Source: an uncultured Rhodospirillales bacterium (lineage in GTDB: Bacteria; Pseudomonadota; Alphaproteobacteria; Acetobacterales; Acetobacteraceae). Taken from it: a stretch of 54,935 nucleotides of DNA. The translations under genes and the position numbers were made by a program. The DNA lies in NCBI GenBank assembly GCA_903893975.1, contig CAITOL010000018.1:1-54935 (forward strand), in the 5' to 3' direction. Numbering within the stretch: the stretch's first letter is position 1; each line of letters begins with the position of its first letter. The notes beneath the pieces are model-generated. The model saw nothing but the letters and a program-made list of their open reading frames with translations. It searched no databases and was not told the DNA's origin. Below, in pieces: positions 1-12,637 of the stretch.

Positions 1-950
1 GCCTTCCGCTCCGTCGTCAGCACCGCGAAAGCCAATCGCGCTTCGGTATTGGACACCATTCGCTTCGTGCTCGCGGCCAAGCTACCCGCCGGGCCGATCG
101 CAGGAGTGGGGTGAGCAATTACCTCAAGATTGGCGCGATTTAACCGCGTTGCCAGCAGGCCTGGTTCTGCAGCCATCGCCGCATCATAGGCCTCCAACGC
201 CTTGGCGGTGTCTCCGCGATCAGTTGCCAATAAGCCCTTTAGTGACAGGGCCTCACCAGAAAGCGGATTGATCTCGAGTGCACGGTCGATCGCCTTCTCG
301 GCTTCGTCCCTATCGCCACGCGCATAAGCAACGCGGGCCGCAGCAATCGGCGGTTCAACCTTGTCCGGATCGAGTTGCTCTGCCAGGGCAACCGATGATG
401 CGGCGGCTGCATTATCATTCAAGGCCAGTTGCGCCATGGCGTGAAGCGTCAGGAGCGCCGCCGCCTCGTTCGGTGCCAAGCCTGATGTTGGGAACTCCTC
501 AAGCAGTTCCTTATACATTTGCTGGCCAAGATACGCCTGCGCAAGTAACGGCGACACCTGACGCGGCGGCATCCCCATGTCGCGTGCGATGCGCAACTCT
601 TTGCTAGCGGCGACAGCATCATTGAGCCGAAGATGCAGCGATCCCAGCCGAAAATGGGCGTCGAGATTGCCTGGATCCGACGCGACTATATCGCGCAGTA
701 GAGCCCGAGCTGCCTGCAATTGGCCACTCTCTAGCAGGCGGGTCGCAATGGTCAGTGGCTTCTCCGGACGGAAAAACTTCCACCATGCGCCGCCGGATCC
801 AATCAGCAGCACCACCGCGAGGCTTAGATAAACCCACCAAGGCACACGAATAGCGCTGCGAGAAGACGTAATGCCCGTCCCTTCAAGCAGATCTCGCTCA
901 GCAACAGACGCTATGGTTGGTAGCGGCCGTCTGAAAAACAGCCACTTCAT
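1..950 (-). CDS. TPR-repeat protein, PrsT-like (PEP-CTERM/exosortase system), partial
   Basis: The frame is open from an ATG at 950 to the left edge, so only the first ~316 residues are present. A GAGG ribosome-binding site lies seven bases upstream of the ATG. A cytoplasmic stretch of ~38 residues is followed by one membrane segment at about residues 41-56 (WVYLSLAVVLLIGSGGAWW). The rest is alpha-helical tetratricopeptide repeats, for example around RALEINPLSGEALSLKGLLA. The early repeat LLAQAYLGQQMYKELLEEF resembles the PrsT TPR protein that accompanies exosortases. Its close coupling to a PEP-CTERM protein gene (24 bases apart, same strand) supports that reading. A generic TPR scaffold such as a CcmI/CycH-type protein is the alternative. 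The TPR assignment is firm; the PrsT link is inference. Confidence 0.72.
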   Translation of the reverse strand, partial: MKWLFFRRPLPTIASVAERDLLEGTGITSSRSAIRVPWWVYLSLAVVLLIGSGGAWWKFFRPEKPLTIATRLLESGQLQAARALLRDIVASDPGNLDAHFRLGSLHLRLNDAVAASKELRIARDMGMPPRQVSPLLAQAYLGQQMYKELLEEFPTSGLAPNEAAALLTLHAMAQLALNDNAAAASSVALAEQLDPDKVEPPIAAARVAYARGDRDEAEKAIDRALEINPLSGEALSLKGLLATDRGDTAKALEAYDAAMAAEPGLLATRLNRANLEVIAHPTPAIGPAGSLAASTKRMVSNTEARLAFAVLTTERK

Positions 951-974
951 GCGCGTTCCTCGGATGGATTCGGG

Positions 975-3900
975 CTAGAATGGATTGCCTTGCACCTCAA
1001 TTCGTCGGCCACGACGCCGACGAACTACCGAGATTATACCAAGCCCGCCTGTTGCAAGGAAGGTCAACGTCGCAGGCTCCGGAATGGACACAACCATCAG
1101 ATTGAACTGCTGCTGGCCACCGCTAATATTGACAATCGCCGCCCGCCAACCGAGTTGCGCACTGCCCAAGCTGGGCAAACCAACGATGCTGCTAAAGTTT
1201 CCGACAATGCTGGTGGCCTGTAACAAATTATACGTCGCACCGAGCGTTGGCGTAGCACCCGTCCATGCGACTTGTAGAATACCACCCAACTGCATGCTCG
1301 CAGTCGACGTATCGCCAATCGCGGTATAGGCCGTACCACGCGCACCCGACCCGTTTATCAACACATTCAAAGTGTTGCTGGACAGAAAGTTCATCGTGGT
1401 GCCGTGAATCAACACGGGCGTTGCCCCGGTATTCAGGCTATTGTTGAAATTCACCACACCCGTATAGGAGCCAGACCCAATAACGGCCCCCGCTAGAGTC
1501 AACCCAGTTCCACCGGCAACCGTGCCGCCCGCATTATTGTTGATCGCGTTGGCCAAGGTAATGGTCGATGTTGCGGCCAAGGTGCCGCCGCTATTGATCG
1601 TAATAGCGCCACTACCGGCCGCACCGGATGCAGCCACGGCGACACCACCGGCATTGATTACCGTGCCCCCGCTATAGCTGTTGCTGCCATTCGTCAGGGT
1701 GAGCGTACCAGAGCCTTGCTTGACGATTGACCCGGAGCCGGTGATCAACGACGCAGTGGAGGTCGAACTCGCCGTCCCCGCCGTCAGGGTGCCACTGCCC
1801 AACGATACGGTCCCACCCGTGCCGCTTAGGTCGGCGACAGTTTGAGAATTACCGTTGAGGTTAAAAGTGCCACCGTTAACCGCAAGATTACCCGATGCGG
1901 CCAAACTACCGCCGGAGCCAAGTGTTAAAGCACCAGCGGAGACCGTCGTGCCACCGGTGTAGGTGTTGGCACCAGTGAGAGTCGTCGTACCGCTCCCACT
2001 CTGCAACAGCGCACCGGTTCCACTAATCACCTGGCTAATCGACAGGCCGGTATCGGTTCGATTAAACACCAAATTACCGTTATCGGTGATGGGCCCAGCA
2101 ACAGCACCGGTAGTTCCGCCGGCACCAAGGCTGAGTGTGCTGCTGCTATTGATCGTTGTGGCGCCGGTGAAACCTGAATTCGCATTTGACAATGCGGTGG
2201 TTCCGGTCCCGGCAATGGCGAGGCCAGCAGAACCTGAGATGGGCCCCGAGTATGTCACGCCACCAGAGTTAGAGTTGTTGAGCGTCGCCCCGCTGGACCC
2301 GACCGTCACCGCCTCGGAAAGGGTGAAGCCTGACGTACCCGTCGTTGCCAAAGTGCCGCCGTTAATCGTGAGCCCGCCGGCACCGGTCCCAAGCGGGGCG
2401 GCACTCGACACGGCCACAGTGCTACCACTGCCAATCGTTGTCGCACCGGTGAAGCTGCTGCCACTGGCCCCGGATAGCGTGGTGGTGCCTGTGCCGGTGA
2501 AGTTAAGCGCGGTCGATCCGGTGACAACGCCGGAGAGGGTCACGCCACCGCTATCGGTGTTATTAACAGTCCCTCCACCAGTGCCCAAGGTGATCGCATT
2601 GTTGAGACTGATCGAGGAGCTGCCTGTGGTTGCCAGCGTCCCGCCAGCAAGGGTCAGCCCGCCGCTAGACATGTTCGAGGCGGAGGAAATCGACAATGCG
2701 GCGCCGGAATTCACGGTCGTCGTGTAGCTGGCACCGCTGTTGGTGCCGCTCAACGTCTCCGTTCCACCGGACACAACCAAGGCACCAGTGCCCGAGATAG
2801 CACCTGACAGCGTGCCGGTGGCGGCCGTCACCGTTAGAGTCTTGCCGCCGAGGGCAACCGAACCGGCACCGCTGATTGAGGTAACCGATGCACCAGAGGT
2901 CGTGCTGGAGATACTGAACGCACCGGCATCCGTAATCCCTGAGGAACCAGCGAGGGACCCACTGCCACTCAACGCCAGGGTGCTGCCACTGCCGATAGAG
3001 GTGGCCCCCGTGAAGGTGCCGCCACTTGCCCCTGTCAGCGTTGTGGTGCCAGCACCGGTGAAATTCAACGCCGTTGAACCGGTCACGGCTCCAGACAAGG
3101 TTAACCCACCAGTATTGGTGTTGTTGAACGTGCCGCCGCCGGTGCCGAGGGTGATTGCCTCGCCAAGCGTAAAGCCGGTGCTGCCGGTTGTTGCCAATGT
3201 TCCGCCAGCGAGCGTAAGCCCCCCGGCGCCAGTTCCCAGCGGCGCCGCGCTGGAAACAGCGACCGTGCTGCCGTTGCCAATCGATGTGGCACCGGTGAAG
3301 GTGCTACCGCTTGCGCCGGTCAGCGTGGTGGTACCCGTGCCGGAGAAGTTAAGCGCCGTAGATCCGGAGATTGCGCCAGAGAGGGTCAAGCCGCCGGTAT
3401 CGGAATTGTTAAACGTGCCGCCACCCGTGCCCAGCGTTATGGCATTCGCCAAGCTTATGGCCGTACTACCGGTTGTGGCCAAAGTGCCGTTGGCAAGGGA
3501 GAGCGTACCGGTAGACATATTTGCCGCAGACGCGATCGATAGTGTGCCAGTCCCATTTACGGTCGTCGCGAAGGTCGCGGCACTGTTGGTGCCGCTCAGC
3601 GTCTCCGTGCCACCTGATACAATCAAGCCACCCGTGCCACTGATGGCACCTGATAGGGTACCAGAAGCAGCCGTCACGGTTAGGGTTTTAGCGCCAAGGG
3701 TCAACGCGCCACTGCCAGACAGAGCGGTCACAGAAGTACCGGTAGCTGTAATGCCGGAAATGTTGAACGTGCCATTGTCGGTCACGCTTGAGCCCGTAAT
3801 CGCGCCATTACCGGTTAGCAATATCGCACCACCACTGCTGATTGTGGTCGCGCCGGTATAGGTATCGGCGGCCGTGAGCACGAGATTGCTGGTTCCCGTT

Positions 3901-4571
3901 TTGGTCAGCGAACCCGAACCGCTAATCACGCCCCCCAAAGTGAGCACAGACCCGGTGTTTGCGAATGTGCCCCCACCGGTGCCCAGCGAAATGGTGTTAA
4001 TGAGGCTTACGTTCGCCGACGTCGACTGCAGCACACCGCCATTGCTGAGCGAAATTGCTCCGGAGCCAATATTACTTGGCGCGCTAATCGATATGCCGCC
4101 AGTGCCGCTGATGTTTAACCCCCAGGTCCCTGTACTTGTGCCCGACAAGGTTTGAATAGCCGAACCCGTCTCCGCGAGTGTTCCGGTTCCAGAAAATTTC
4201 ACCGACGACGTTTGCGCCAATGTGTTGTTTAGGGTGAGCGTAAAGCCGCCGAGGGCGATCGTATCCGATGTGTTAGCGCCCAAACCCGCAACTGTTGCGG
4301 GCGAGGCGGTCAACGTAACGGTGAGGTTGCTCCCCCCAAATGTCACAACGTCAGTGGACCCAGGTGGGGATGTGGCGCAGCCCGTCCAAACGGACGCGCT
4401 CCAGTTCCCACTCGCCGACAGCGCGCATGCAGCTATTGCGGGCGTAGAAACGAAGGCGGACAGGGCTGAAAACACGATAATCGTGAGGGTCAGAAGTAGT
4501 GCGAAGGGAGGCACGCACCACGTGAGGCGTAATTTAGATGGCCCTGAGGTGCCGCAATAAACCCCGGTCAT
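975..4571 (-). CDS. Large repeat-rich surface protein with PEP-CTERM sorting signal
   Basis: The predicted protein has 1198 residues. It opens with a signal peptide (charged start, then LLLTLTIIVFSALSAF, then an AxA-like site before CALSASGNW). The body is Gly/Ser/Thr-rich autotransporter-associated beta-strand repeats (GANTYTGGTTVSAG type), expected to form a beta-helix. The C-terminus has the PEP-CTERM hallmarks: IPEPATL, a ~17-residue hydrophobic segment, then RRRRGRR. Such tails are cleaved by exosortase and the protein is sent to the surface or into exopolysaccharide. There is no autotransporter beta-barrel. The start at 4571 was chosen because GGGGGA precedes it and the signal peptide follows; a frame open to 4679 adds 36 residues that look unlike a leader. 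Ligand and function are unknown. Confidence 0.85.
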   Translation of the reverse strand: MTGVYCGTSGPSKLRLTWCVPPFALLLTLTIIVFSALSAFVSTPAIAACALSASGNWSASVWTGCATSPPGSTDVVTFGGSNLTVTLTASPATVAGLGANTSDTIALGGFTLTLNNTLAQTSSVKFSGTGTLAETGSAIQTLSGTSTGTWGLNISGTGGISISAPSNIGSGAISLSNGGVLQSTSANVSLINTISLGTGGGTFANTGSVLTLGGVISGSGSLTKTGTSNLVLTAADTYTGATTISSGGAILLTGNGAITGSSVTDNGTFNISGITATGTSVTALSGSGALTLGAKTLTVTAASGTLSGAISGTGGLIVSGGTETLSGTNSAATFATTVNGTGTLSIASAANMSTGTLSLANGTLATTGSTAISLANAITLGTGGGTFNNSDTGGLTLSGAISGSTALNFSGTGTTTLTGASGSTFTGATSIGNGSTVAVSSAAPLGTGAGGLTLAGGTLATTGSTGFTLGEAITLGTGGGTFNNTNTGGLTLSGAVTGSTALNFTGAGTTTLTGASGGTFTGATSIGSGSTLALSGSGSLAGSSGITDAGAFSISSTTSGASVTSISGAGSVALGGKTLTVTAATGTLSGAISGTGALVVSGGTETLSGTNSGASYTTTVNSGAALSISSASNMSSGGLTLAGGTLATTGSSSISLNNAITLGTGGGTVNNTDSGGVTLSGVVTGSTALNFTGTGTTTLSGASGSSFTGATTIGSGSTVAVSSAAPLGTGAGGLTINGGTLATTGTSGFTLSEAVTVGSSGATLNNSNSGGVTYSGPISGSAGLAIAGTGTTALSNANSGFTGATTINSSSTLSLGAGGTTGAVAGPITDNGNLVFNRTDTGLSISQVISGTGALLQSGSGTTTLTGANTYTGGTTVSAGALTLGSGGSLAASGNLAVNGGTFNLNGNSQTVADLSGTGGTVSLGSGTLTAGTASSTSTASLITGSGSIVKQGSGTLTLTNGSNSYSGGTVINAGGVAVAASGAAGSGAITINSGGTLAATSTITLANAINNNAGGTVAGGTGLTLAGAVIGSGSYTGVVNFNNSLNTGATPVLIHGTTMNFLSSNTLNVLINGSGARGTAYTAIGDTSTASMQLGGILQVAWTGATPTLGATYNLLQATSIVGNFSSIVGLPSLGSAQLGWRAAIVNISGGQQQFNLMVVSIPEPATLTFLATGGLGIISVVRRRRGRRIEVQGNPF
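2158..3000 (-). repeat. 843-bp intragenic repeat, copy 2
   Basis: This is the second, C-terminal copy of a long module in the PEP-CTERM protein gene. Matching landmarks occur 846 bp away in the other copy: the start of the 'gtctccgt' tract at 2755 versus 3601, and 'gtgct.cc..tgcca' at 2419 versus 3265. Each copy encodes one unit with KTLTVTAA-type sequence followed by two units beginning GGTLATTG. Outer boundaries are approximate because the flanking sequence is itself repetitive. Copies differ at many third positions, so the duplication is not recent. Confidence 0.7.
3001..3846 (-). repeat. 846-bp intragenic repeat, copy 1
   Basis: This is the first, N-terminal copy of the module. It encodes about 282 residues, an exact multiple of three, so the duplication keeps the reading frame. 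It contains the unit GTSVTALSGSGALTLGAK and two GGTLATTG-type units, in the same order as copy 2. The junction between the copies was placed at the GATSIG/GATTIS motif. Confidence 0.7.
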
Positions 4572-5006
4572 TGATTTTCCCCCACAGCGATTTCGTAGAC
4601 CGTTGTCGTGTGCACAGCCACAGGTCCCGCTACGCTCGCAACCGCGAGTCCATGAGACACGCCCATCCAGCCTGCGCAATCAATTCGCAACAATGGCCCA
4701 ACCCCTTGAATCAACACTCGTTCTCATAATTTCTGCCGAAGTGGCACGTCACCAAAATCAAGCAACATCACATAATGAAAGATAACCCGCCCAAAAACCA
4801 TGACGCAGCAAGATTTGTCAAGCTTTTCGGCGAGTTGATTGACTCAAATCGATCTTTGAAAATGTTTATTTATTTAACAAATCAATCATCGCACCTACCC
4901 TCCCCCCGCCCACTCACACTCAGAACGCCCGTAGCACGACGCATTACAATATGACCCGGCTCATAAGGTGGATGACATCGCGTCGCGACGACATGGGAGT
5001 GTGTCA
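4572..5006. other. Intergenic region between divergent genes
   Basis: This stretch separates the PEP-CTERM gene (minus) from the monooxygenase (plus). The part at about 4790-4900 is clearly more AT-rich than its surroundings, including aatgtttatttatttaac, so it is the best place for promoters of both genes. It holds one GACTC (GANTC) site near 4849. I see no tRNA, no convincing RNA gene and no operator that I can name. Short frames in it lack ribosome-binding sites, apart from the small ORF starting at 5007. Confidence 0.5.
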
Positions 5007-5138
5007 ATGGACAAGCTGCCCAATGATGCCTCTGGCCAGGTGACAAAGCGGCTGCGAGTAATCCATGATCCGGCAGCGGTTAAAAAAGCAAAGAACAAAG
5101 GTGGGAATGAAAATGTCGAACGACAGTACGACGCATGA
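5007..5138 (+). CDS. Possible 43-aa small ORF overlapping the monooxygenase start
   Basis: An ATG at 5007 is preceded by GGGAG with a seven-base spacer. It opens a 43-codon frame (start MDKLPNDASGQV, end VERQYDA) that stops at 5138, 26 bases inside the monooxygenase frame and in a different phase. The peptide is hydrophilic, with a Lys-rich stretch (VKKAKNKGG), and has no membrane segment. It could be a leader peptide coupling translation to the monooxygenase, or a chance frame. I recognise no family. Only the ribosome-binding site and the overlap support it. Confidence 0.3.
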   Translation: MDKLPNDASGQVTKRLRVIHDPAAVKKAKNKGGNENVERQYDA

Positions 5139-9237: not shown

Positions 9238-9252
9238 TCAAGGAGACTGGAT

Positions 9253-9768
9253 GTGGTTATCCCTGAGGCACTACAAGCTGTGTTCGACACCTTAAGCATC
9301 GGGCCAGCCTGCCACGTACATCCGCCGTTGATGACATCGGACGATGCGGCCGTACAGTGGGACCGATTGGACGGTTGGCAGGTCAAAAATCTGTTTCTAA
9401 AGGATGCCGGAGGACAGTTGTGGCTGGTTGTACTGCCCTGCGAGCCGCTCGTGGACACTAAAATTCTAGCAACCGTGATCGGATCGAAGCGGATTTCATT
9501 TGGGAGTGCCGCATTATTATTGGAGGTGCTGGGAGTCACACCGGGATCGGTAACCCCACTGGCCATCATGAATGATCGTCAACGCCAGGTGCGGCTGGTC
9601 ATCCACGCTGGGATCATGCACCTTCGCCCCTTGCTGGTACACCCGCTGATCAACACCGCTACGCTCGAACTCCAACAGTCGGACCTGTTGCGATTTCTAG
9701 CCCATCATGACGTAATGCCAGAAATCGTTGATCTAAGCGCCGCGTTTCGCCAGCCAGTTTCCGCCTAA
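9253..9768 (+). CDS. Prolyl-tRNA editing deacylase, ProXp/YbaK family
   Basis: A 171-residue free-standing editing domain related to the INS domain of prolyl-tRNA synthetase. It hydrolyses mischarged Ala-tRNA(Pro). Recognisable parts are [17 protein letters not shown], with the catalytic Lys region, [31 protein letters not shown] and [19 protein letters not shown]. It starts at GTG 9253, with AGGAGA six bases upstream; an ATG at 9251 is out of frame. It begins 15 bases after the ABC-F stop, so the two are probably co-transcribed. Its end overlaps the convergent nadK stop by four bases. Confidence 0.9.
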
Positions 9769-10550
9769 ACGGTAAATTGCTCGGCAATAATTCGTTCTGA
9801 TAGACCTTGACCAGGGTCGAAGAGCACGGTTGCCGAAATCTCCCGGTCTTCATGCACGGCGACCGACATCACATCGCGGACTTCGTGTGAGTCCGCGACG
9901 GCAGCGACCGGGCGCTTGTCGCTTTCGAGCACTTCAAACAGCACTTCGGCTGAACTCGGTAGCAAGGCCCCGCGCCAACGGCGCGGCCGAAACGCGCTGA
10001 TCGGGGTCAGCGGTAGTAGATTGGCCGACAGCGGCACTATAGGGCCGAATGCGGAGAGATTATAAGCCGTTGAACCCGCTGGTGTGGAGATGAGCACACC
10101 GTCGCAAATCAACTCAGCCAACCGAACATTACCATCGACGGTGATGCGGATCTTCGCGGCCTGCGCCAGTTCCCGCAACAGTGACACTTCATTCAACGCC
10201 AACGCTTCATGCACGGCACCGCCCGTTGTCACTGCAAACATCCGCAGTGGGTGCAGCCGTGCCGGCTGAGACTTCGCCAGCCGGCGCAGTAGGTCATCCT
10301 CGTTCAAGGCGTTCATTAAGAAGCCAACGGACCCGCAATTCATGCCATAAACTGGAATGCCGCGATCAAGCACCAGGTGCAGCGTTTCCAGCATGAAGCC
10401 GTCGCCACCGAGCGATACGATAACATCTGCGTCATCGACAGGCACATCACCATAGCGATCCACCAACCGTGCCCGAACGTCACCGGCCATCGGCGCAGAT
10501 GAAGCGCGGAAGCAGATGCGCCGATAGCCGCCCGTTACATTGTCGGTCAA
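9765..10550 (-). CDS. nadK: NAD kinase
   Basis: Phosphorylates NAD to NADP using ATP. The signature motifs are present: [13 protein letters not shown] (GGDG at ~48-51), [10 protein letters not shown] (~117-126) and [15 protein letters not shown] (~156-170). I start it at a TTG at 10550 that shares bases with the TGA of the upstream nitrilase gene (TTGA overlap), giving 261 residues, the usual alphaproteobacterial length. A longer in-frame extension to 10631 would lie inside the nitrilase gene and is unlikely. The overlap points to translational coupling with the nitrilase. Confidence 0.93.
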
Positions 10551-11383
10551 ACGAGTTTCCGCTGGGCGACCACCGGCATGTCGCGGCGGATGCGGTGGGT
10601 TAATTCCGGGTCGATCCGCGCCGTTGCCCAACCAGTCCCATCCGACACTTTAGCCACGACATGGCCCCAGGGATCAACCAGCATGGAATGGCCATAGGTC
10701 GCGCGAGTTTCGCCGTTCCCTTCCTTATGGGGGCCGTACATCGCCGGCGCCGCGAACCAGCATTGTGTTTCGATCGCGCGCGCGCGGATGAGGGTTTCCC
10801 AATGATCTTTGCCGGTTTGCAGCGTGAAGGCGGCAGGCAGGAAAATGAGCTCCGCCCCGGCTTGACGCAGCCGCAGAAAAAGTTCCGGGAAACGCACGTC
10901 GTAGCAAATCGAACAGCCAACTTTGATCCCGTCGGCCTCGTAGGTCACAACTTCATCCCCAGGCGCGTAGGTGCGACTTTCGCCGAACACCAAGCCGTCT
11001 GGCGTGCTGATATCGAATAAATGGATTTTTCGGTACCGCGCGATCTCGGTGCCATCCGGATTAAACACCAAAGTGGTGTTAAATAATCTTTCGCCACCAC
11101 GCTCGCCGATCGAGCCACCATGCACGAAAATGCGCTTCTCGCGGGCGGTGCTGCGCAGGAACTCATAGGCCTCCCCACCCGGGAGATTGCTGCCCGGCGG
11201 CGGCAGATCTTCGGCCTGCCGGAACTTTCCGTCGCGATCGCCGCCCATGCAACTCCACACTTCGGGCAGGCTGACGATATTGGGACGGTCGGCTTCAACC
11301 GCAGATGCGATCAGCGCACGCGCTTGATCGATATTGGCCAATTTATCGGCCCCAGAATTCATCTGCACGACGCTCACTCGCAT
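10547..11383 (-). CDS. Nitrilase-superfamily carbon-nitrogen hydrolase (Nit1/Nit2-like)
   Basis: A 278-residue amidohydrolase with the Glu-Lys-Cys triad: E41 in SLPEVWSC, K119 in RYRKIHLFD and C160 in [13 protein letters not shown]. The [14 protein letters not shown] stretch and overall length fit the branch that includes deaminated-glutathione amidase (metabolite repair) and omega-amidase. AGGAG lies eight bases before the ATG. It is the first gene of a two-gene operon with nadK, whose start overlaps its stop. The exact substrate is inferred from family resemblance only. Confidence 0.88.
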
Positions 11384-11506
11384 ACAGCACTCCTGTCACG
11401 GCGGATATGGCACGATCACTAATCTAGCAGGGGAGTGGCGAGCCTGCTACTGCTAGCGCCCTGACGCACAGGCGTGCGCTCTGCCTGCGCACTGGGGAGA
11501 TTTTTG

Positions 11507-12637
11507 ATGAAGCTACTCACCCCCGGCCCGGTGACGACCCGGCCCGAGGTCAAGGCCGCGATGACACAGGATATCGCGCCTTGGGACAACGAGTTCCGCC
11601 CCATCTACCAAGCGGTGCGCGACCGGCTCCTGCGGATCGCTGGCGGCACACCCGAGACACATGTGGCCTTGGCACTCCAGGGCTGTGGGCACTTCGCTAT
11701 GGAAGCCGCCATCCGTACGTTCGTGCCGGTTGGCAGAAAAATTTTGATACCCCTGGTAGGGTCTTATGCGGACCGCATGGCGCACCTGGCGAAAGACGCC
11801 GGCCGAATTCCTGTGCCTTTGCCCGTCGATCAAGAGCGACCGGTCTCGCCGGCCGCGATCGCCCAGGCCTTGGCAGAGGACCAGAGCATCGGTCATGTCG
11901 GGCTCGTCTACAGCGAAACAGGCAGTGGGGTCGTACATGATCCTGCGGCAATCGGTGCGGCGGTGCGCGCTGCCGGACGCCGATTGCTGGTCGATGCGGT
12001 ATCGGCTTTTGGGGCGCTGCCTTTGAATGTCGCCAGCCAGCCGGAACTGGATGCAGTGATGTTCACGTCCAACAAATGCCTGGAAGCCATGCCCGGCTTG
12101 GGATTTACGGTCGCCCGCATTAGCAGCCTGCAAGCCGCCGCGGGAAATGCTGGAAGTTGGTCGTTTGATTTCGCCGATATTTATCAACATACCCTGCGCC
12201 CTGACAGCGGCGGCAGTTTCCGGTTCACGCCACCGGCGCAGGTTTTATCCGCAGTGCATACAGCGTTGGATCTGTTCGACGCCGAGGGCGGGCAACCAGC
12301 GCGGCTGGCGCGGTATCGGCAGAATGCTGACGTGCTTTACGAGGGCATGCGGGCATTGGGTTTAGACCCGTGTTTAGCGCGGGATGTGCAGGGGCCAATC
12401 ATTGTCAACATCGCGGCGCCTGATGATCCGGCCTGGGACTTGCAACGGTTCGTTGACCTGCTCAAGCAGAGCGGCTGGCTGATCAGTAACTTCTACAACA
12501 CCGCGCAGCCGAGCTTCCGGGTGGGGTGCATCGGCGCCATCACCCCCGACGATATGCGCGGCTTTCTGAAAGCGGTAGCATCCGTATTAACCACGATGGG
12601 TATTCGCAACCGTCGCGCCTGCCGCGCGGTTGCATAA
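11507..12637 (+). CDS. Class V aminotransferase, 2-aminoethylphosphonate:pyruvate transaminase-like
   Basis: A 376-residue PLP enzyme of fold type I. The start [17 protein letters not shown], the substrate loop [15 protein letters not shown] (~58-72), D163 in [12 protein letters not shown] and the PLP lysine K190 in [14 protein letters not shown] match PhnW. The tail ([24 protein letters not shown]) also fits that family. PhnW makes phosphonoacetaldehyde from 2-aminoethylphosphonate. No phnX, phnA/phnY or phosphonate transporter is in the window, so the substrate is uncertain; a serine- or alanine-glyoxylate aminotransferase is the alternative, and the adjacent fhs would suit one-carbon metabolism. 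GGGGAG precedes ATG 11507 and fixes the start. Confidence 0.8.

Follow-up and report, generated by a model that had tools for sequence, protein, structure and literature searches.

In the usual scheme of PEP-CTERM/exosortase systems, a substrate protein is exported by Sec, retained by its C-terminal helix, acted on by the exosortase XrtA at the PEP motif, and delivered to the surface or matrix. The role of PrsT, a TPR-repeat protein of such systems, is left unsettled in the parts of the two closest accounts on which we draw (PMC1569441, PMC9850573). The first, by Haft et al., includes alpha among the PEP-CTERM-positive divisions in those parts and discusses R. rubrum. In the corresponding parts of the second, a transposon in prsT abolished flocculation of Aquincola tertiaricarbonis RN12, plasmid-borne prsT restored it, and prsT transcription seemed unaffected by rpoN1 disruption.

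Here we describe two genes at the left edge of contig C18 of an uncultured Rhodospirillales bacterium (Acetobacteraceae; assembly of 4.2 Mb in 202 contigs); "the window" denotes the whole stretch analysed, 54,935 nucleotides. One gene encodes a PEP-CTERM protein with PATR (autotransporter-type beta-strand) repeats, and the other, prsT2, encodes a second PrsT and is cut by an IS66-type insertion element. We think it likely that the two form an accessory pair belonging to an ordinary XrtA system, the main locus of which is elsewhere in the genome. Comparisons were made with four congeners (G001, G002, G003 and G004), the source genome (G000) being the fifth of the genus, and profile searches were calibrated on 14 control genomes. 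A match to alpha_tmRNA (257.3 bits), seen among the controls only in Caulobacter, supports assignment to the class Alphaproteobacteria.

An interrupted second prsT beside a PATR-repeat gene

The prsT2 gene starts at an ATG at position 950, and its reading frame exits the left edge of the window, where the contig stops within an IS66-type element present in several copies. The window piece matches the PrsT model TIGR02917 over positions 21–236 of 899 (140.5 bits); since the gene is interrupted, this is below the 312.2 bits required of a full-length match. A second piece, covering model positions 239–898, was found at the right end of contig C14. The two pieces tile an intact 952-residue congener protein, residues 1–276 aligning with its residues 1–274 and the C14 piece continuing from residue 272, and they are 65–72% (N-terminal piece) and 68–69% (C-terminal piece) identical to congener PrsT2. 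An intact congener orthologue scores 457.1 bits against TIGR02917, above the cut-off. Among the five genomes compared, prsT2 is interrupted only in the source genome, where both of its pieces and the PATR gene keep open frames.

By eye, PrsT2 has one hydrophobic helix at about residues 38–57 and no cysteine within 75 residues of its start. No lipobox, and hence no lipoprotein signal, was found in the first 45 residues of the other PrsT of this genome (PrsT1, described below) or of 20 related PrsT rows, some of them truncated or with uncertain starts; the NCBIfam description, 'TPR-repeat protein PrsT', mentions no lipoprotein. Solved-structure matches of congener PrsT2 were varied TPR proteins, including PA4667, and were not used as functional evidence. 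Congener PrsT2 had no plasmid match at 1e-20.

The first 122 bases of the window have 13 matches in the genome, counting the window itself, and nine of these span all 122 bases. The other copies stop exactly at GGTGAGCAATTAC, each then with different flanking sequence. The opposite end of the element lies on C14; a perfect 13-bp inverted repeat is common to both ends, ATCTTGAG occurs on both flanks, and the insertion site is uninterrupted in all four congeners. The element end has nine full-length copies, eight of them identical, so the insertion looks recent. At 10 loci fetched, just 106–209 bases of the element precede the contig stop. In tblastn searches, a 66-residue transposase C-terminus from a longer copy on contig C80 matched 32 plasmid records; six of the 12 matches listed carry an IS66 family transposase annotation, and among those listed identity to genes so annotated was 44–60%. 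The 37-residue piece from the window gave one weak plasmid match (E 8). PF03050 scored 12.9 bits on the 66-residue piece (cut-off 23.1) and had no match in a search of the whole genome, in which the element interior was not found; the missing interior is taken as an unassembled repeat, not as evidence against IS66. Ends beginning GTAA and an 8-bp duplication are hallmarks of IS66, and both, together with the transposase homology, fit this element, although just its two ends are visible here and its assignment to the family is provisional.

A further copy of the same end occupies bases 1–37 of a locus on contig C175 (L010). Bases 38–508 hold an open PEP-CTERM protein frame (VPEPVTLALLGSGLIGLGVMRRRSKSR) that abuts the element without a stop, the beginning of the gene being missing; this is apparently a second PEP-CTERM gene interrupted by the same element. 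On contig C49 (L027), the element's other end and a PEP-CTERM match below the cut-off are a few hundred bases apart at most.

Because C14 carries both the remainder of prsT2 and the element's other end, it is placed as the left neighbour of the window. Its order from prsT2 is ftsK (convergent with prsT2), a further gene, ribF, ileS, lspA, pgi and mutL. In two of the four congeners prsT2 adjoins ftsK: in G003 ftsK is directly convergent with an uninterrupted gene of 952 residues, and in G002 the contig ends within prsT2, beside ftsK. In G001 and G004 one open reading frame (ORF) of 647–675 codons intervenes, whose product (L112:5453-7396(+), L113:15436-17463(-)) had no Pfam match at E up to 1. 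Past ftsK comes ribF in G001 and G003; the G004 piece stops short of it. On the 5′ side, a PATR gene with a PEP-CTERM-like tail lies 27 bases from prsT2 in all three congeners whose contig continues (G001, G003 and G004). Beyond it, these three have a divergent glutathione S-transferase-like gene (Pfam-checked in G003) and then a monooxygenase. The transferase-like gene is absent from the window, where the divergent neighbour owes its monooxygenase-like label to NF045818, below that model's cut-off. In G004 (contig C27) two PATR genes stand in tandem 5′ of prsT2 (L113:4533-8747(+) and 9243-12521(+)); in the farther one AEP replaces PEP, and TIGR02595 gives 11.7 bits, under the cut-off, as if the sorting signal were decaying.

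The PATR protein has a possible start at ATG 4571 and a signal-peptide-like N-terminus, start codon and signal peptide both being assigned by eye. Its repeats were detected by PF12951 (five stretches, 65.7 bits) and TIGR02601 (six stretches, 65.3 bits), and its C-terminus reads IPEPATLTFLATGGLGIISVVRRRRGRRIEVQGNPF. The PEP-CTERM model TIGR02595 gave 19.4 bits in the genome scan and 19.2 bits on the last 60 residues (cut-off 16), and PF07589 gave 23.8 bits on the last 60 residues (cut-off 20.7); TIGR02595 was unlisted when the entire protein was scanned at E up to 1. This weak model, of 24 positions, had matches at E up to 10 in 12 of the 14 controls, two of them above cut-off, and the adjoining prsT2 and the genomic XrtA are therefore counted as part of the PEP-CTERM evidence. 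A Pfam scan at E up to 1 listed only PATR and PEP-CTERM domains and no autotransporter beta-barrel, the mark of a classical type V protein. The tails of three of the four congener PATR proteins exceed the TIGR02595 cut-off. Outside the genus only repeat-type similarity was seen; any match at all occurred in 12 of 60 related genomes, including the source genome and three of the four congeners (none in G002).

Table 1. Features at the left edge of the window and, where indicated, on contig C14.
Feature	Position	Strand	Basis
End of IS66-type insertion sequence (transposase C-terminus) interrupting prsT2; terminal repeat GGTGAGCAATTAC at 110-122	1..122	+	Repeat matches, tblastn
8-bp target duplication ATCTTGAG (minus-strand reading), with a second copy on the C14 side	123..130	-	Both flanks compared
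prsT2, N-terminal 276 codons (cytoplasmic tail, hydrophobic helix, TPRs)	123..950	-	TIGR02917; alignment to congeners
prsT2, remainder	C14:24902-26944	-	TIGR02917; alignment to congeners
Gap between PATR gene and prsT2, 24 bases	951..974	-	ORF coordinates
PATR protein gene, 1198 aa	978..4571, stop codon 975-977	-	ORF list; PF12951, TIGR02601
PEP-CTERM sorting domain (IPEPATL, hydrophobic helix, RRRRGRR)	1011..1085	-	TIGR02595, PF07589
Upstream region of PATR gene, divergent from monooxygenase-like gene	4572..5064	-	Box and sigma-54 scan

The XrtA locus, the PrsT paralogues and PEP-CTERM gene control

One exosortase was found in the genome, on contig C22, using TIGR02602, which matched one of the 14 controls and none above cut-off. 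It is XrtA (TIGR03109, 273.7 bits, cut-off 208; PF09721, 190.8 bits). Read from a TTG it has 561 residues, and its C-terminal extension (~240 residues) matched no family in NCBIfam and Pfam scans. An impression by eye that it is an XrtA–EpsI fusion was dropped, EpsI being unlisted by NCBIfam (E up to 1) and Pfam (E up to 0.001). Beside XrtA lie a TIGR03087 glycosyltransferase gene and a TIGR03019 FemAB gene. Contig C5 encodes an XrtA deacetylase, chain-length and export proteins, an outer-membrane protein (TIGR03016, 91.1 bits, cut-off 90.85), an autokinase-like protein (TIGR03018, 162.8, under the cut-off of 230.65) and an EpsB-type transferase that is slightly under the TIGR03013 cut-off (384 against 393.35) and above that of TIGR03025; it also carries prsK, prsR and an intact prsT1 in tandem, all above cut-off (PrsT1, 548 bits). 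Placed against contig C26 of G004, C22 ends and C5 begins at extrapolated positions no more than ~10 bases apart, and the two are therefore read as one locus. XrtA and PrsT1 of G004 are both on C26, and its PrsT2 is on C27. Among 60 related genomes, XrtA exceeds its cut-off in 17, including the source genome and all four congeners.

Two further observations concern such loci. A protein with a Hint_2 domain, of self-processing type, is encoded near the XrtA locus (L031:7251-8645(-), on C22; 137.9 bits, cut-off 28.4). In G008, G030 and G018 (L125, L128 and L129), PrsR- and PrsT-like proteins were present but XrtA gave no match, which may reflect gaps in the drafts or an exosortase of another type.

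A preliminary description of the window, made from the sequence, had reported a PrsT-like TPR membrane protein 24 bases downstream of a large protein ending in IPEPATL and RRRRGRR, and the ORFs, TIGR02595 and TIGR02917 all agree with it. The sorting tail that it proposed scores above the TIGR02595 cut-off, as one of 24 such matches in the genome, and the exosortase gene that it called for is present. A PEP-CTERM/exosortase system in an alphaproteobacterial genome is thus upheld by XrtA, by prsK, prsR and prsT above cut-off, and by alpha_tmRNA. The expectation of sortase and exopolysaccharide genes directly to the left of the window did not survive: the element and then the C14 housekeeping genes are found there, and XrtA is on C22, abutting C5. 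To treat alphaproteobacterial membership as noteworthy was an overstatement, given the place of alpha in the published list (PMC1569441, in the parts drawn on) and the spread of XrtA among related genomes. The description was therefore right about the system and wrong about its location, and it missed the second PrsT broken by a transposon.

PrsT2 is ~40% identical to PrsT1. In the PrsT tree, PrsT2 forms one clade (support 100/100) outside a clade that unites PrsT1 of the genus with proteins of G008 and G024 (96/95). This suggests that PrsT2 arose before the genus did, by duplication or transfer, although its exact position is modestly supported (90/85). A survey of 299 family genomes, in which at most two candidates per genome were scored, returned matches to congener PrsT2 at 1e-120 or better in 62 genomes (the source genome included). 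Matches of at least 69% identity were confined to the five genomes of the genus, the next best being 43%; outside the genus, G112 and G282 had two matches each. Third-position G+C of prsT2 in the source genome is 0.57–0.61, among the lowest of 62 mechanically picked ORFs, and several other window ORFs are similarly low; in the congeners it is 0.74–0.77 for PrsT2 versus 0.73–0.75 for PrsT1. The C14 piece by itself has 0.57, the ftsK, ribF, ileS, lspA, pgi and mutL genes 0.67–0.71, and the XrtA locus on C5 mostly 0.80–0.85. Branch lengths reveal no large acceleration of PrsT2 relative to PrsT1. Horizontal acquisition of prsT2 by this species was considered and rejected, as the congener genes lack the low G+C and the branching of PrsT2 within the genus mirrors that of PrsT1.

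Upstream motifs were scored at 19 of 29 TIGR02595 loci, among them two under the cut-off (L026 and L027); the window gene (L022) was scored separately, from the window. Left out were L008, L010 and L023 (open at a contig edge), L020 (short frame), and L021, L024, L028, L029 and L030 (wrong or no C-terminal frame). Nine of the 19 genes have a box like TGTC-N7-TTTACA (score at least 17, p ≤0.01) and a sigma-54-like site (score at least 8/10) 58–127 bases before the start, while the other 10 reach at most 10.5 (box) and 7 (sigma-54). Five of the nine positive genes trained the box matrix and four are independent; the background was 1000 random 420-base draws from the window, with PATR regions scored over 480 bases and others over 400. 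The two sites fit motifs 1 and 2 of Haft et al. (PMC1569441) as its text describes them, the logos not entering the comparison. Four PATR genes from three congeners scored 5.4–10.3 for the box (p 0.05–0.32) and 6–7 for sigma-54. The combination of box and sigma-54 site thus occurs before none of the five PATR genes, versus nine of the 19 testable PEP-CTERM genes, and the PATR–prsT2 pair therefore appears to lie outside the PrsR regulon. A TTGACA element was noted by eye upstream of all five PATR genes.

A proposed role for the pair and competing explanations

In the mechanism that we propose, the PATR protein would be exported by Sec, with the C-terminal helix anchoring it in the inner membrane. 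XrtA, encoded on C22, would cut at the PEP motif, and the repeat domain, released or attached to the surface or exopolysaccharide, may act as an adhesive matrix protein. The parts fit the usual scheme, and it is quite probable that the PATR protein follows it. PrsT2 would be an inner-membrane-anchored periplasmic TPR protein, co-transcribed with the PATR gene, that escorts this one substrate; that it serves mainly the PATR protein is a possibility to which we give rather little weight. The IS66-type element has cut prsT2 after codon 276, apparently recently, and since the gene is cut there, PrsT2 is very probably non-functional in the source genome. The PATR protein would then rely on the intact PrsT1 or be mis-sorted. 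In a broader proposal, PrsT proteins would be escorts for specific substrates, the second PrsT of the genus would serve only a single giant PEP-CTERM protein of PATR type that PrsK/PrsR do not control, and this species, with PrsT1 intact, would be a natural knockout of prsT2. This proposal is speculative and on balance doubtful. If it were true, the knockout beside an intact PrsT1 would make the congeners a matched comparison for the role of PrsT. A second PrsT tied across a genus to one substrate gene, with one member naturally interrupted, offers a way to learn whether the action of PrsT is limited to certain substrates or concerns exopolysaccharide as a whole. The locus also indicates that a PrsT/PEP-CTERM pair alone does not mark the position of an exosortase locus.

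Several observations weigh against the accessory-pair interpretation. The C14 piece of prsT2 exceeds the TIGR02917 cut-off only narrowly on its own (325.4 versus 312.2 bits), and one of the 14 control genomes exceeds that cut-off as well. PF07589 falls under its cut-off on the whole repetitive PATR protein (16.8 versus 20.7 bits) and on three of the four congener tails. Structure models were too poor to be used, with mean predicted local distance difference test scores of 60.8 for the PrsT2 N-terminus and 36 for a single-sequence model of the PATR protein. Upstream of the PATR gene in the window, neither regulatory motif was found (best box 7.9, p=0.097; sigma-54 7/10), and expression of the gene may be independent of the XrtA system. 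The assembly leaves C14 and C18 as separate contigs. The five genomes compared belong to one genus and are not independent, and the argument for a dedicated PrsT2–PATR partnership, from neighbourhood and co-conservation in that genus, is weak.

The pair could instead be the edge of an exosortase/exopolysaccharide cluster just left of the window, as PrsT is often encoded in the XrtA locus and PrsT1 is so here. We regard this as hardly credible: the sole exosortase found is on C22, housekeeping genes lie across the element on C14, and G004 has XrtA/PrsT1 and PrsT2 on separate contigs. The tiling of PrsT2 over C14 and C18, together with the congener order, refutes such an arrangement unless C14 is not the true neighbour. 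The split of prsT2 could likewise be an artefact of an assembly in 202 contigs, in which copies of the element end lie at contig ends and the interior (no PF03050 match) was not found. An exact 8-bp duplication around two perfect 13-bp repeats, the uninterrupted site in all four congeners, and other copies that end at the same base with different flanks make an artefact very improbable. It is very improbable, too, that the PATR C-terminus is a chance PEP and hydrophobic tail on an autotransporter-like passenger. TIGR02595 is short and exceeds its cut-off in two controls, and PF07589 is low on the whole protein and on most congener tails; against this, no autotransporter barrel was listed, the tail is kept in the congeners (three of four above the TIGR02595 cut-off), and the gene has a PrsT neighbour in an XrtA genome.

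A stronger competitor holds that the locus is being lost, the insertion being a first step of decay at a PATR/PrsT2 pair already dispensable in this species; we put its chances at somewhat below even. The interruption of prsT2 in one genome of five would fit, as would the low third-position G+C of this copy when congener prsT2 resembles PrsT1. The frames are nevertheless still open, the PrsT2 branches are not greatly accelerated, the insertion looks recent, and other ORFs in the window have similarly low G+C.

Comparison with described systems

PEP-CTERM proteins in general, a PEP-CTERM gene next to prsT, and the occurrence of XrtA in alphaproteobacteria were already known. As far as we have seen, the second PrsT of this genus, paired with a PATR protein, and the natural break in its gene are new; no account of either was found in the open-access literature searched, most subscription papers being outside that search.

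We compare the locus with those parts of the two published accounts named at the outset. The genome resembles the system of Haft et al. (PMC1569441) in having one XrtA, a prsK–prsR–prsT1 tandem next to exopolysaccharide genes and, upstream of some of its PEP-CTERM genes, a motif-1 box accompanied by a sigma-54 site. It differs in the additional PrsT2 outside the main locus and is set apart by an XrtA with a ~240-residue C-terminal extension, EpsI being unlisted. PrsT is described there with a lipoprotein signal, whereas neither PrsT here has a lipobox near its start. The arrangement in RN12 (PMC9850573) is similar in that a PEP-CTERM gene lies upstream of a TIGR02917 prsT, outside the epsB2–prsK cluster. 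The substrate is PepA in RN12 and a 1198-residue PATR repeat protein here. In RN12 a sigma-54 promoter has been mapped for pepA and a putative terminator precedes prsT, whereas here no sigma-54 site was found before the PATR gene and the gap to prsT2 is 24 bases. Unlike RN12, the present genome has a second, intact PrsT, and the interruption of its prsT2 is natural.

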